From: a virus
Virus record (IMG/VR): IMGVR_UViG_3300030389_002756
Coordinates: 1-22,797 of that record
DNA length: 22,797 bases
Direction: 5' to 3' (one strand)
Positions 2,465 to 20,890 of this stretch are shown here, piece after piece; within the stretch, counting starts at the first letter, position 1, and each line of letters starts with the position of its first letter. The notes below the pieces were generated by a model. The model was not told where the DNA came from. It did not search any database and was given only the letters and a program-made list of their open reading frames with translations. Position numbers and translations under genes: made by a program.

Positions 2465-4546
2465 ATGGCTAAACAAACTTCACAAATAAATATTGCGTTT
2501 TTAACAAAGGGTGAGGGTGAGGTAGCAAAAGCTTTTAAAAGGCTTCGTGGCGAAACAACAAGACTTAATAGAGATTTTCAATCTTTATCAAAAGATTCAA
2601 TTGCAAAAGTAAAGAATGAATTTAACAAATTAGGTGCTGGTGCAAGAAATAGTCTTAATGCAATGCAAGCGCAAAGAAATGCGTTAAATGGGTTGCGTAA
2701 TATGGCTGATGTTACAAGTGTTGAATTTAAACAGCTTACTGCTGATATTGCACGATTAGATGCACAGATGAGAAAAGCTGGTGCTGGCACTACTGGTTTT
2801 AAAGGTAAATTAGGAGGTTTTGCTAAAGGTGCTGGAGCTATAGCGGCTGGTGGTATTTTTGGAGGGCCAGAAGGTGCTATTGGCGCTGGTATCGGTTTGG
2901 GTATTGGCGGCCCTGCTGGTGCTGCTGTTGGTGCTGCTGTTGGTGCGCAAGTAGGAATGGTTCGTCAAAGTATTGGAGAGGTTGCTGATTATGATGCAGC
3001 ATTAGAACTTCAAAGAAAAGCTTTAAAACTTGTTATTGGTGACACAAAAGAATTTGCTAAATCGCAAGAATTTTTGGCTGATAGAAGTAAAAAATTAGCA
3101 ATACCCCAAGATGTAATAGTAAGACAATTTACATCATTAACTGCTTCTGTAAAGGGTGCTGGTAAAGAAACTGCTGATGCTGAAAAAGTATTTAAAGCAA
3201 TAGCTGCTGGTATTAGAGGTACTGGTGGAAACTTAGAAGACATGAAAGCTGCTATGAGAGCGACTAGCCAGGTGTTCTCGAAAGGCAAAGTATCAGCCGA
3301 AGAATTGAGACAACAGCTCGGCGAGAGGCTACCCGGTGCGTTTACTTTGTTTGCTGATTCTATGGATAAAACACCAGCACAATTAGATAAGGCGTTAGAG
3401 CAAGGTAAAGTCACATTAGATGACTTTATGAAGTTTGCAGAAAAATTATTTGATACTTATGGTGAAAATGCAGAAATACTTGCTGCAAGTCCAGAAGCTG
3501 CTGGTGATAGGTTAAGGACAGAAATGTCTAATTTAAAAGATAGTTTAGGGGATATATTAAGACCAATGGGCGCAGCATTTCAAACTTTTGCAGCACAAGC
3601 AGTTGGAGCTTTTAATGAAGTAATTAAACGTGTTAAAAAGTTTCAAATAGAAATGAAAGAAGAAGGATTGAGAAAAACAATAGAAGAAGCTGATAGGCAA
3701 ATAAGAAATATTGATGCAAGATTAAAAGTTTTAGCAAAACAAGATACTAAAAATGCAAATCAACTTAAAAGAGAACTTATAAAAAATAGAGCAACACAAG
3801 TAGGTATTAAAGCATCAGCACAATCAGATTTACGATCACAATTTATTCCAAAAGATTTTACTGTTGGTGGTAATGTTTATGATGGTTTAACAGGTCAGTT
3901 TAAAGGAACTGTAGCCGAATTGAATAAAACCTCTAAAAACGAGACAACTGAGTCTTTGAATAACATTCAAAAGGGAGCAAAAGCATATTTCGATACTATT
4001 AGCGATTTTGGAAAACAAACTCAAGATGCTGTTGCTGGTGCATTTAAAGGTATGGAAGATGCTCTTGTAAAATTTGTACAAACAGGAAAGCTTAACTTTA
4101 GTGATTTAGCAAGATCTATAATGGCAGATCTTACCAGAATGTTGGTAAGAGCATCATTGCTTAATTTTTTAAGTCCTTTCCCATTCTTTGATCGAATAAC
4201 AGGTGGTAAAAACGCAAAGGGAAATGTATACGATGCTGGCAATAAGATTTCTAAGTTTGCGTATGGGGGCATAGTCAAAAAACCTACCTTATTTCCCATG
4301 GCCCAAGGCATGGGGCTTATGGGGGAAGCTGGCCCGGAAGCAATCATGCCGTTGAAACGTGGTGCAAATGGAAAGCTAGGAGTGCAAAGTTCTGGAGGTG
4401 TTGGTAATATTGTTGTAAATGTAGATGCTTCCGGTAGCTCTGTTGAAGGAGACAACCAGCAATCACAAGAGTTTGGTAGAGCTTTAGCTGTTGCCATACA
4501 ATCAGAAATGATTAAACAAAAAAGACCAGGTGGCTTATTAGCATAA
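2465..4546 (+). CDS. Tail tape measure protein (lambda gpH-like)
   Basis: A 693-residue protein that sets tail length and is later injected. Seen in order: helical N-terminus (about 1-110) rich in K, N and Q; a Gly/Ala hydrophobic stretch (about 112-168, repeated GxGxGGPAGAA patterns) suited to membrane insertion; a tape-measure N-terminal domain ending in EELRQQLGERLPGAF and the DFMKFAEKLF helix (about 175-330); a charged coiled-coil zone (about 390-450); then the lambda-type C-terminal tape measure domain near 515-575 (AFKGMEDALVKFVQTGKLNF) and a tail with FAYGGIV and GEAGPEAIMPL. At about 1.5 A per residue, as in lambda, it predicts a tail near 100 nm. The ATG abuts the GT stop with no gap. 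Confidence 0.93.
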   Translation: MAKQTSQINIAFLTKGEGEVAKAFKRLRGETTRLNRDFQSLSKDSIAKVKNEFNKLGAGARNSLNAMQAQRNALNGLRNMADVTSVEFKQLTADIARLDAQMRKAGAGTTGFKGKLGGFAKGAGAIAAGGIFGGPEGAIGAGIGLGIGGPAGAAVGAAVGAQVGMVRQSIGEVADYDAALELQRKALKLVIGDTKEFAKSQEFLADRSKKLAIPQDVIVRQFTSLTASVKGAGKETADAEKVFKAIAAGIRGTGGNLEDMKAAMRATSQVFSKGKVSAEELRQQLGERLPGAFTLFADSMDKTPAQLDKALEQGKVTLDDFMKFAEKLFDTYGENAEILAASPEAAGDRLRTEMSNLKDSLGDILRPMGAAFQTFAAQAVGAFNEVIKRVKKFQIEMKEEGLRKTIEEADRQIRNIDARLKVLAKQDTKNANQLKRELIKNRATQVGIKASAQSDLRSQFIPKDFTVGGNVYDGLTGQFKGTVAELNKTSKNETTESLNNIQKGAKAYFDTISDFGKQTQDAVAGAFKGMEDALVKFVQTGKLNFSDLARSIMADLTRMLVRASLLNFLSPFPFFDRITGGKNAKGNVYDAGNKISKFAYGGIVKKPTLFPMAQGMGLMGEAGPEAIMPLKRGANGKLGVQSSGGVGNIVVNVDASGSSVEGDNQQSQEFGRALAVAIQSEMIKQKRPGGLLA

Positions 4547-18869: not shown

Positions 18870-18987
18870 TAGGTATATTGCGGTCAATAATGCCATACAT
18901 GACATAAAGTGGTGCTAAGCCTATAATTAAAAAAAGCACCATAAATGTAATTGGTACGCTTGCTTTAATTAGGGCTTCTTTAAACAT
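18856..18987 (-). CDS. Candidate 43-aa single-TM protein, antisense gap filler
   Basis: Minus-strand frame from ATG at 18987 to TAG at 18858-18856. It has a short amphipathic lead (MFKEALIKAS), one strong membrane segment (VPITFMVLFLIIGLAPLYVM) and a polar end (DRNIPIKTQ). The plus strand has stops in all three frames across 18870-18985, so this frame would explain an otherwise empty gap. Its start codon overlaps that of the plus-strand gene at 18986 by two bases; its end overlaps the coiled-coil gene by 14 bases tail to tail. No Shine-Dalgarno is visible. A longer version starting at 19005 or 19077 would overlap the divergent gene more. Real status uncertain. Confidence 0.4.
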   Translation of the reverse strand: MFKEALIKASVPITFMVLFLIIGLAPLYVMYGIIDRNIPIKTQ

Positions 18988-19219: not shown

Positions 19220-19365
19220 ATTGTTGGCATTGCAAGTCAGAATTACTCTGGGGTGGCGATCACGATACTGAAGAAGACACGCAGTATTCTATAGTCACAA
19301 ATTTATCTTGCCCAAAATGTTTTTCTTATGTAGAAGTGTATCTACCAAGAAATGCCTACGATTGA
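19216..19365 (+). CDS. CxxC zinc-ribbon microprotein
   Basis: A 49-residue frame overlapping the previous stop (ATGA) and the next start by 14 bases. It has two CxxC pairs: C3-W-H-C6 at the very start and C32-P-K-C35, with LLWGGDHD between, and a VEVYLP strand at the end. The four-cysteine spacing fits a structural zinc ribbon. A protein of this kind beginning MNCWHC with WGGDHD is, from memory, recurrent in marine cyanophages. It could be a small transcription or nuclease modulator, but nothing in the sequence shows its target. Confidence 0.8.
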   Translation: MNCWHCKSELLWGGDHDTEEDTQYSIVTNLSCPKCFSYVEVYLPRNAYD

Positions 19366-19972
19366 AATACCAGAAATATATATTCCAGAAATATATATTC
19401 CAGAACCATACACACCTAATATTCCTATAGTCACTCAATATTTAGAGATAAATCCTCCGGGTTGTACTTATCAACATAGAGATATAAAAAATACAGGTAA
19501 TCATAATTTGTTATTAGATGACCCTAATGGTGTATATACCATTTGTGATTTTACCTTTCCTAATTTTACACCGCCTATATATAACCCTAACCAGATGACA
19601 ATGATAGAAGAGCCATTGCCACAGGGAGGAGATCCAGAAATACCAAAAACAGAAACACCTAAAATTCCAGAAGAAAAAGAAGAAGAAATAGTAATACCAG
19701 AATGTCCTAGCCCTAAAGACCAACGAGTAGGTGATTACAGAAATGCAAAGAAGCTTGAAATCGTAGTAGGACATCGCTTAGATAAAACTGAGTGCATAAC
19801 TCTATATGAAGACGTACCCTTCAAAGATCAATACATTCCTTCTGCTAATCAATTTATTGGTGTTTTTAGTCTTGCTTTGGTCGGTGCTTCTGCTCCAGTT
19901 GTCTTACAGTTAGTGCGACCTTTAGTTAAGCAAGCTGTTTCTAAGCTGACAAAAAAGAATAATAAGGTATAA
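19352..19972 (+). CDS. Proline-rich protein with C-terminal hydrophobic segment
   Basis: A 206-residue protein. N-terminus is a tandem IPEIY-type repeat, encoded by a 15-bp DNA repeat. A central block has INPPGCTYQHRDIKNTGNHN and LLDDPNGVYTICDF, which resembles, from memory, a cyanophage hypothetical family. It is followed by an acidic/Pro linker (EIPKTETPKIPEEKEEE), a domain with VVGHRLDKTECITLY, and a hydrophobic C-terminal segment (FIGVFSLALVGASAPVVLQL) before a basic tail. It has no signal peptide, so it would be tail-anchored with the bulk in the cytoplasm, or virion-associated. Its stop lies inside the TATAAT of the next promoter. Confidence 0.65.
   Translation: MPTIEIPEIYIPEIYIPEPYTPNIPIVTQYLEINPPGCTYQHRDIKNTGNHNLLLDDPNGVYTICDFTFPNFTPPIYNPNQMTMIEEPLPQGGDPEIPKTETPKIPEEKEEEIVIPECPSPKDQRVGDYRNAKKLEIVVGHRLDKTECITLYEDVPFKDQYIPSANQFIGVFSLALVGASAPVVLQLVRPLVKQAVSKLTKKNNKV
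19370..19405 (+). repeat. 15-bp tandem repeat, 2.4 copies
   Basis: CCAGAAATATATATT at 19370-19384 and 19385-19399, then CCAGAA at 19400-19405. It encodes the PEIYI units at the N-terminus of the Pro-rich protein; copy number could change by slippage without breaking the frame. Confidence 0.9.
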
Positions 19973-19973
19973 T
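19946..19973 (+). promoter_or_regulatory. Sigma70-type promoter for the structured RNA
   Basis: CTGACA (19946-19951, five of six consensus bases) and a perfect TATAAT (19968-19973) with a 16-base spacer. The expected start, about seven bases on, is A19980, which is also the first paired base of the RNA structure that follows. The -10 box contains the TAA of the upstream gene. Confidence 0.55.
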
Positions 19974-19979
19974 AAATTT

Positions 19980-20063
19980 AGATCCAGTAAGGGCTGATCC
20001 CTGTTTAAGATTGGTCGAAAGGCTTAGACGGCTTAAATGTCAAAGGTGGACTAAATTGGATCT
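19980..20063 (+). ncRNA. Candidate structured RNA, closed four-way junction
   Basis: An 84-base noncoding stretch closed by AGATCCAGT (19980-19988) pairing with ATTGGATCT (20055-20063), nine pairs including one G-T. Inside are three arms: AGGG/CCCT with a 5-base loop (19990-20002), TTTAAG/CTTAAA (20004-20009 with 20032-20037) enclosing a small hairpin with a GAAA tetraloop (about 20013-20024), and GTC/GAC with a 7-base loop (20039-20051). A second GATCC (19996-20000) could compete for the same GGATC partner, allowing a switch. It is not a tRNA (no TTC loop, wrong arm sizes). The promoter position and the terminator downstream suggest an independent transcript. Hand-folded only. Confidence 0.45.
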
Positions 20064-20107
20064 TTAACTATTTTTGCAAGGTATAAACATAAGCAGACAT
20101 TTTTTTA

Positions 20108-20142
20108 AGCCCCTTACAGGCGATTCTGAAGGGGCTATTTTT
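20108..20142 (+). terminator. Intrinsic terminator
   Basis: AGCCCCTT (20108-20115) pairs perfectly with AAGGGGCT (20129-20136), 13-base loop, followed by ATTTTTC and more T. It works for plus-strand transcripts; the minus strand has A, not T, after the stem. The end of the convergent minus-strand gene (stop at 20137-20135) lies in it. Confidence 0.85.
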
Positions 20143-20890
20143 CTGGTTTTACGTCAATTTTGTGTGTATGAGGCACAACTTGGTTTGGTGGTATAGAAAC
20201 TTGTATCCCTTCGCAAGTAGTGGCATATTTACCAACAAACTGCACACCTTTCTTTAACTGCTCTGAGCAAATAGTTAATCTGTAAAGTTCGATCTCCATT
20301 TGTAGTTTTTTTGTTAATAACTTCTGATTTTTCATATTTATTTCTGTTGCTTCTAAACATAGCTTTGGTGCTTTGCCTAATGGAACACTTATCTGTGCAG
20401 AAATACCATAGTTAAGGTTATAGTTATCTTTTTCAAATCTTGGTATTTCTTGGTAATATTTTATCTCTCCTGTATCTTCGTCATAAATAGGAGTTCTAGT
20501 TACTGTTGAAATAGGTCGATTAAAACTCCACGCATCTGTCATATAAGGAGTAATTGTAAGAGTAGGAGATGCACAGACAATACCTTGCGACATCCTAAAT
20601 TGTGGATGGCTTGAAGGGGTGATCATGGTGGCATTGTTATTAACTACTCCGGTACTTTGCGATTGAGGAGAGGCTACTGTTGTATTAGCGTAAACCTTTG
20701 TAGGACAGAGAAGTAAAGCTACTGCCCAAACGTACTTGTAGATTCTGTGGTGGTTGAGGTAGTTATAGTCCGAGTTATATTTGTAACTGTATCGAGGCCG
20801 GGAGCCATTACACTTTCTACCAGACTGAAGGAACTTGCTGGGTTTGATATTTTCCACCTTGCGTTTGAAGAGCCGTCTAAAGTAGTCCAA
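20135..20890 (-). CDS. Secreted cyanophage-type protein, start uncertain
   Basis: The frame is open from ATG 20890, but the first 49 residues lie inside the upstream gene in another frame and look like shadow sequence. The real protein probably begins near residue 50, where IYKYVWAVALLLCPTKVYA forms a good Sec signal peptide (cut after YA). No ATG, GTG or TTG exists there; the codon at 20743 is ATC. I drew the range to the only canonical start that keeps the signal. Mature part: TTVASPQSQSTG, MSQGIVCASPTLTITPY, NYGISAQISVPLG, then a helical end with four cysteines overall. From memory it matches a family of exported proteins in marine phages; function unknown. Confidence 0.65.
   Translation of the reverse strand: MDYFRRLFKRKVENIKPSKFLQSGRKCNGSRPRYSYKYNSDYNYLNHHRIYKYVWAVALLLCPTKVYANTTVASPQSQSTGVVNNNATMITPSSHPQFRMSQGIVCASPTLTITPYMTDAWSFNRPISTVTRTPIYDEDTGEIKYYQEIPRFEKDNYNLNYGISAQISVPLGKAPKLCLEATEINMKNQKLLTKKLQMEIELYRLTICSEQLKKGVQFVGKYATTCEGIQVSIPPNQVVPHTHKIDVKPEK

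Follow-up and report, generated by a model that had tools for sequence, protein, structure and literature searches.

A conserved structured RNA, predicted to be independently transcribed, at an exchangeable cassette site of Prochlorococcus siphophages

The DNA analyzed here, which we call the window, is a whole stretch of 22,797 nucleotides and constitutes a 22.8-kb virus record with lambda-like tail genes. Because the J-like protein of the window has its nearest relatives in the Prochlorococcus MED4 phages MED4-117 and P-HS2, and also in AG-345-A17, and because the relatives of phrog_848 among phage records lie nearly all in cyanophages, Prochlorococcus is most likely the host. The RNA in question is flanked by two convergent cyanosiphovirus genes, which also border the corresponding site, or hotspot, in related phages. 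Four independent homologues were identified in other marine phage contigs (L117, L119, L121 and L122); together with the window, they make up the five sequences of family A. The features of the locus are as follows.

19352 to 19972, plus strand: upstream gene, phrog_570, function not known; left border of the hotspot
19946 to 19951, plus strand: -35 hexamer CTGACA, in Leu-Thr codons at the 3' end of the upstream coding sequence
19964 to 19972, plus strand: left copy of the direct repeat AAGGTATAA, read from the sequence
19968 to 19973, plus strand: -10 hexamer TATAAT (TANAAT in all five family A loci)
19980 to 20065, plus strand: family A structured RNA, a three-way junction (covariation; covariance model match of 106 bits, the window being part of the training set)
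19980 to 19988, plus strand: closing stem P1, 5' strand AGATCCAGT; four of nine pairs change on both sides among five homologues
20000 to 20002, plus strand: P2, 5' strand CCT, pairing with AGG at 20044 to 20046; C-G to U-A in L122
20003 to 20029, plus strand: P3 hairpin GTTTAAG/CTTAGAC with a conserved 13-nt loop ATTGGWCGAAAGG; 100% paired, U-G to C-G in L121
20030 to 20041, plus strand: P4 hairpin GGC-TTAAAT-GTC; C-G to U-A in L117
20055 to 20063, plus strand: closing stem P1, 3' strand ATTGGATCT, pairing with 19980 to 19988
20078 to 20086, plus strand: right copy of AAGGTATAA, read from the sequence
20108 to 20142, plus strand: intrinsic terminator AGCCCCTTACAGGCGATTCTGAAGGGGCT followed by ATTTTT, identified from its fold and from a block kept in relatives and in the podoviruses P-SSP2 and P-SSP3
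20135 to 20890, minus strand: convergent gene, phrog_848, function not known; stop codon at 20135; right border of the hotspot

The promoter-like string CTGACA-16-TATAAT, reported in an earlier note made from the window alone, matches the consensus at 11 of 12 positions. Sigma-70-like sites with at least 9 of 12 matches are as common in the window as in shuffles. In all five family A loci, exactly 6 nt separate the end of TANAAT from the first base of P1; a recognizable -35 element is present in four of the five, L121 being the one without a good one, and CTGACA/TTGACN-like -35 elements occur in most RNA-bearing relatives. The start point predicted from this constant spacing is 19980, i.e., the first base of the closing stem, as the earlier note had proposed. 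At the other end, the terminator stem (20108 to 20136) and its U-run lie ∼45 nt 3' of the fold, again in agreement with the first reading; a simple terminator scan missed them, probably because the stem is bulged. An AAGCCCC-type terminator follows the fold in the window and in L122, L117 has a different hairpin with a U-run, and L119 and L121 showed no terminator ahead of the convergent stop codon. The block GGTAYAAACATA...AAGCCCCTTACAGGCGATTCTGRAGGGGC (20078 to 20142 in the window and 1500 to 1567 in L107) is kept across these siphophages and is intergenic in P-SSP2 and P-SSP3; it appears to be a terminator common to phage morphotypes, perhaps with a further role. Further upstream, at 18899 to 18927, the window contains a second 11/12 promoter match, ATGACA-17-TATAAT, ahead of a small ORF at 18986.

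Taken alone, the 84-nt folding unit (19980 to 20063) folds no better than chance (z = −1.39; 15 of 200 shuffles were as good), and the whole 172-nt stretch reaches z = −1.5. Such single-sequence z-scores and a promoter match are by themselves weak and would not justify a claim; it is the comparison of homologues that gives significance. RNAalifold on the five sequences gave a three-way junction with a covariation score of 0.363, as compared to 0.205 ± 0.028 in shuffles (0 of 500) and at most 0.10 when the partner strand was slid. Across the named pairs, 97% of cells pair and eight pairs have changed on both sides, with P1 changing, e.g., from AGATCCA/TGGATCT to AACCCA/TGGGTT and AGATCTA/TAGGTCT. 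Thus, the related phage loci that the earlier note had suggested collecting revealed covarying pairs in the closing stem, which it had placed correctly, and in the inner helices. By contrast, its four-way junction is replaced by the three-way consensus: only 70% of cells show a paired AGGG/CCCT arm, which three of the five sequences disrupt, and the proposed competition of two GATCC segments for one GGATC is not conserved because the 3'-side GGATC exists only in the window. The minimum-energy fold of the window itself departs from the consensus, which may explain the four-way model. Single-sequence folds of three of the five (L119, L121 and L122) also show P3 and P4 side by side within P1. P3 and P4 vary little in sequence among the five. 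A pseudoknot, TTGG/YCAA, is compatible with all five sequences and nearly invariant, and competes with P4.

A core of ∼52 nt is 88 to 94% identical among the five family A loci, but identity to the upstream protein of L119 is only 33% for that of L122 and 38% for that of the window. The RNA core is better conserved than the neighboring proteins, implying that selection acts on it or that it was transferred recently; in both cases, it behaves as a unit. Homologues were sought by pattern scans of viral contigs, and because exact patterns miss diverged members, absence elsewhere is relative to that sensitivity. A covariance model built from the five matched only these five in the loci and records searched, as a single copy and always at the hotspot. 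One further locus, L120, matched the loop pattern and was rejected because it lies in a coding gene. The isolate phages searched with the window RNA contained no homologue, and the core pattern gave a single match, in Pseudomonas and attributable to chance, in genomes of 84,980 prokaryote species; thus, at that sensitivity, there is no sign of a host-derived RNA.

Several lines of evidence set the element apart from known RNAs and from coding sequence. ARAGORN detected no tRNA or tmRNA genes in the window, L006, L007, L083 and L088. Searches against Rfam 15 at the gathering cut-off returned no match for the window and 16 cassette loci, and relaxed E-values returned chance-level matches only for the window and other cassettes, which bears out the earlier note's statement that the RNA fits no known family. 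AbiF and type III toxin–antitoxin antitoxin RNAs were not matched by the RNA in Rfam, and no toxin gene was recognized beside it, the neighbors being phrog_570 and phrog_848. Novelty is judged against Rfam 15 and the searched literature, in which we found no description of an RNA-cassette hotspot. The features of an independently transcribed phage small RNA, i.e., its own promoter and a covariation-backed structure, are present, with transcription read at the level of sequence; promoter, stem start and covariation, together with the terminator in the window, uphold the original proposal of a structured, non-tRNA phage RNA. A small translated ORF is very improbable. All five sequences keep the frame ADPCLRLVERLRRLKCQRW open along the core, and in L121 an ATG overlaps the upstream stop codon; however, the other four lack an upstream ATG or GTG start, the N- and C-terminal parts are unconserved, lineages differ by a 1-nt indel that puts the sequence after TGG in another frame, no protein homologue was found (best E = 0.5, for a match straddling two genes), and pairs are preserved by changes in paired columns. 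Given the start codon, indel and homologue evidence, we rejected this frame as a protein, and the earlier view that the stretch has no credible ORF stands with the caveat of this one open frame.

Relatives of both flanking genes defined 103 distinct intergenic intervals. Some are empty, with the genes overlapping or touching, and others hold just a short hairpin or the terminator block. Thirty-nine measure 61 to 400 nt and, in those read, contain one or several closed-stem elements; nine exceed 400 nt and, in those examined, contain protein genes, the protein cargo comprising an MT-A70 methyltransferase (L066), 2OG-Fe oxygenases (L011 and L117) and unknown genes (L024). A promoter score of at least 9 was obtained at 36 of the 39 sites of 61 to 400 nt, as opposed to 1 of 39 sites that are empty or have only the terminator, and 8% of control windows drawn at random from the same contigs (Fisher p ∼3e-17, not corrected for descent among these related loci). 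Moreover, the closing stem begins 6 to 7 nt after the -10 box in 29 of 32 promoter-proximal cassettes, including non-homologous families; two chance pattern matches, in L031 and at 11002 in L119, were left out of these counts. With this spacing, transcripts should begin in the closing stem, and transcription from its first base looks like a rule across unrelated RNAs. No other observation argues as strongly for a locus built to produce small RNAs.

The cassettes fall into families A (window), B (CCAGAC...GTCAG), C (AAGGAGA...TCTATTATCCCTT), D (AAAGGAAGYTGTA), E, G, H and I, with F denoting a short hairpin. Covariation strongly supports family B (0.456 versus 0.208), and the closing stem supports the grouping of family D; family C has too few sequences, and the families beyond A, B, C and D were assigned by eye and remain provisional. 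Different cassettes can occur between closely related flanks: L119 carries A and L141 carries C, and their upstream proteins are 88% identical. The isolates MED4-117 and P-HS2 (L162 and L163, ∼3130 to 3225) have their own small cassette, CCCTAA...TTAGGG, at the hotspot, with TTGACT-16-TAGAAT; in the P-HS2 genome (MT490303.1), the intergenic interval spans ∼4216 to 4343. In L006 (3618 to 3992), ∼300 nt at the hotspot are highly structured (z −4.4): a family B cassette comes first, then a large unclassified fold. Many hotspot loci (e.g., L033, L047, L067 and L094) have a second common hairpin, AGACAAG-N-CCCGT-R-CTTGTCT, whose loop is conserved and which stands by itself or behind cassettes; its end often falls within the convergent gene's stop codon, and it is a possible terminator.

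These comparisons bear on whether the element might instead be a 3'-UTR structure of the upstream mRNA that blocks 3' decay or aids termination, the promoter-like string being a by-product of AT-rich Leu-Thr-Lys codons. The element directly follows the phrog_570 stop codon in four of the five family A loci, the -35 hexamer overlaps coding sequence, and the string lies partly in Leu-Thr-Lys-Lys codons, which favor a -35-like sequence and count against independent transcription. However, a -10 box with 6- to 7-nt spacing is retained across unrelated cassettes, while terminator-only sites keep the gene and the terminator and lack the -10 box. In L117, a 2OG-Fe oxygenase gene parts the phrog_570 gene from the promoter and RNA, so that the -35 and -10 elements lie outside any ORF and follow a different gene, with promoter and RNA both intact. 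Lastly, a bare terminator has no need of a covarying junction with an invariant loop. We therefore consider a 3'-UTR structure rather unlikely.

It is unlikely, too, that the cassettes are selfish or recombinogenic DNA elements (for example, MITE- or attC-like hairpins) inserting here, with an RNA that serves no purpose. In favor of this reading, the window and L122 have a copy of the short direct repeat AAGGTATAA on either side of the insert, a site may be empty or hold one element or tandem elements, and family B is also present at another genomic site. Against this, family A has one copy per record and only at the hotspot, the sequence between the stems is strongly conserved, and promoter-proximal cassettes begin at the same distance from the -10 box. 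AAGGTATAA is present as a single copy at the terminator-only or empty sites L016, L017, L019 and L075. Cassette loss could thus occur by recombination between the repeats, which would leave the one-copy form and break the promoter spacing; gain would occur most simply by homologous recombination in the conserved flanks. At their second genomic site, family B RNAs (L111, L113 and L114, at 4642, 532 and 1119, match strand) have unrelated neighboring genes; those in L114 are in tandem, and a TATATT box lies 7 nt upstream in L111 and L114.

The arrangement of the downstream region informs the mode of action. The gene that follows the RNA is convergent in each of the five family A loci; a same-strand downstream gene, which a riboswitch or other cis-regulatory element would have, is absent, so there is no downstream cis target. 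A riboswitch-like aptamer governing terminator read-through into the antisense of the convergent gene is distinctly unlikely: the compact, conserved, aptamer-like core beside a terminator would suit it, but the same-strand gene is absent, no terminator follows the fold in L119 and L121 before the stop codon of the convergent gene is reached, and the GATCC/GGATC switch is not conserved. The earlier note had also raised antisense regulation of the convergent gene. Extended overlap was not found, as the predicted transcript ends at ∼20142 and the target stop codon is at 20135, i.e., an overlap of at most ∼10 nt; in addition, the convergent gene has many relatives whose neighboring site is empty. 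Complementarity of the core to the phage's own gene starts did not exceed that of shuffles. The absence of a same-strand downstream gene and the minimal overlap with the convergent gene argue for action in trans.

Altogether, we favor, with a probability of roughly 60%, a model whereby 19980 to 20142 encodes an independently transcribed, stable, trans-acting non-coding RNA that is one of a set of exchanged cassettes. The comparison of loci establishes conservation, covariation, promoter spacing and cassette replacement as properties of the sequences. RNA polymerase would start at the first base of the closing stem, sealing the 5' end in a helix, and stop at the terminator 45 nt past the fold; the base-paired 5' end and the terminator hairpin would make the RNA long-lived. 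Within the three-way junction, the invariant P3 with its 13-nt loop and the small P4 hairpin may present sequence to a partner, and the most likely target of the RNA during infection would be a host factor, either a protein or an RNA. Related Prochlorococcus siphophages would exchange about eight or nine RNA cassettes at this site, probably by recombining within the promoter, terminator and flanking genes that they share. Such a pattern of cassettes suggests that the phages adapt to different hosts or defenses. Because RNA replacement in close relatives resembles the turnover of accessory anti-defense genes, our preferred guess is a host-specific partner and a role in counter-defense or take-over.

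Phage accessory-gene hotspots, including anti-defense islands, combine conserved flanks with exchangeable cargo and are known for protein genes, e.g., those for anti-defense factors. The site described here shares the conserved flanks and swappable cargo, which includes an MT-A70 methyltransferase, but differs in that its cargo is mostly structured RNA behind a similar promoter. CfrI of cyanophage S-PM2 is a ∼225-nt intergenic RNA antisense to psbA (PMC12197685). Both CfrI and the window RNA are intergenic non-coding RNA genes of marine cyanophages; however, the latter folds as a compact three-way junction and has no extended overlap with a target. The manA, wcaG and PhotoRC-II motifs (PMC2864571) and glnA (PMC9964418) are likewise structured RNAs of marine cyanophages found by comparison, but they are cis elements tied to downstream genes, whereas the window RNA has no Rfam match. 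Cyanophage S-CREM1 carries an abiF RNA (PMC9964418). AbiF and type III toxin–antitoxin RNAs (ToxI) are also small and structured, and a decoy role is conceivable here, the resemblance being one of possible role only.

The swapping of unrelated folded RNAs suggests an exchangeable RNA tool for infection. More tentatively, we suggest that Prochlorococcus siphophages keep a dedicated RNA-cassette locus: two conserved genes enclose a promoter and a terminator, and families A to I would be swapped in, each beginning at the transcription start, as an exchangeable arsenal against host defenses or regulators. Because the isolates P-HS2 and MED4-117 carry a cassette at the hotspot, this idea can be tested in culture. 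If true, a hotspot with mainly structured RNA as cargo would suggest that viruses infecting one of the most abundant photosynthetic organisms have a pool of RNA effectors invisible to protein-centered searches.
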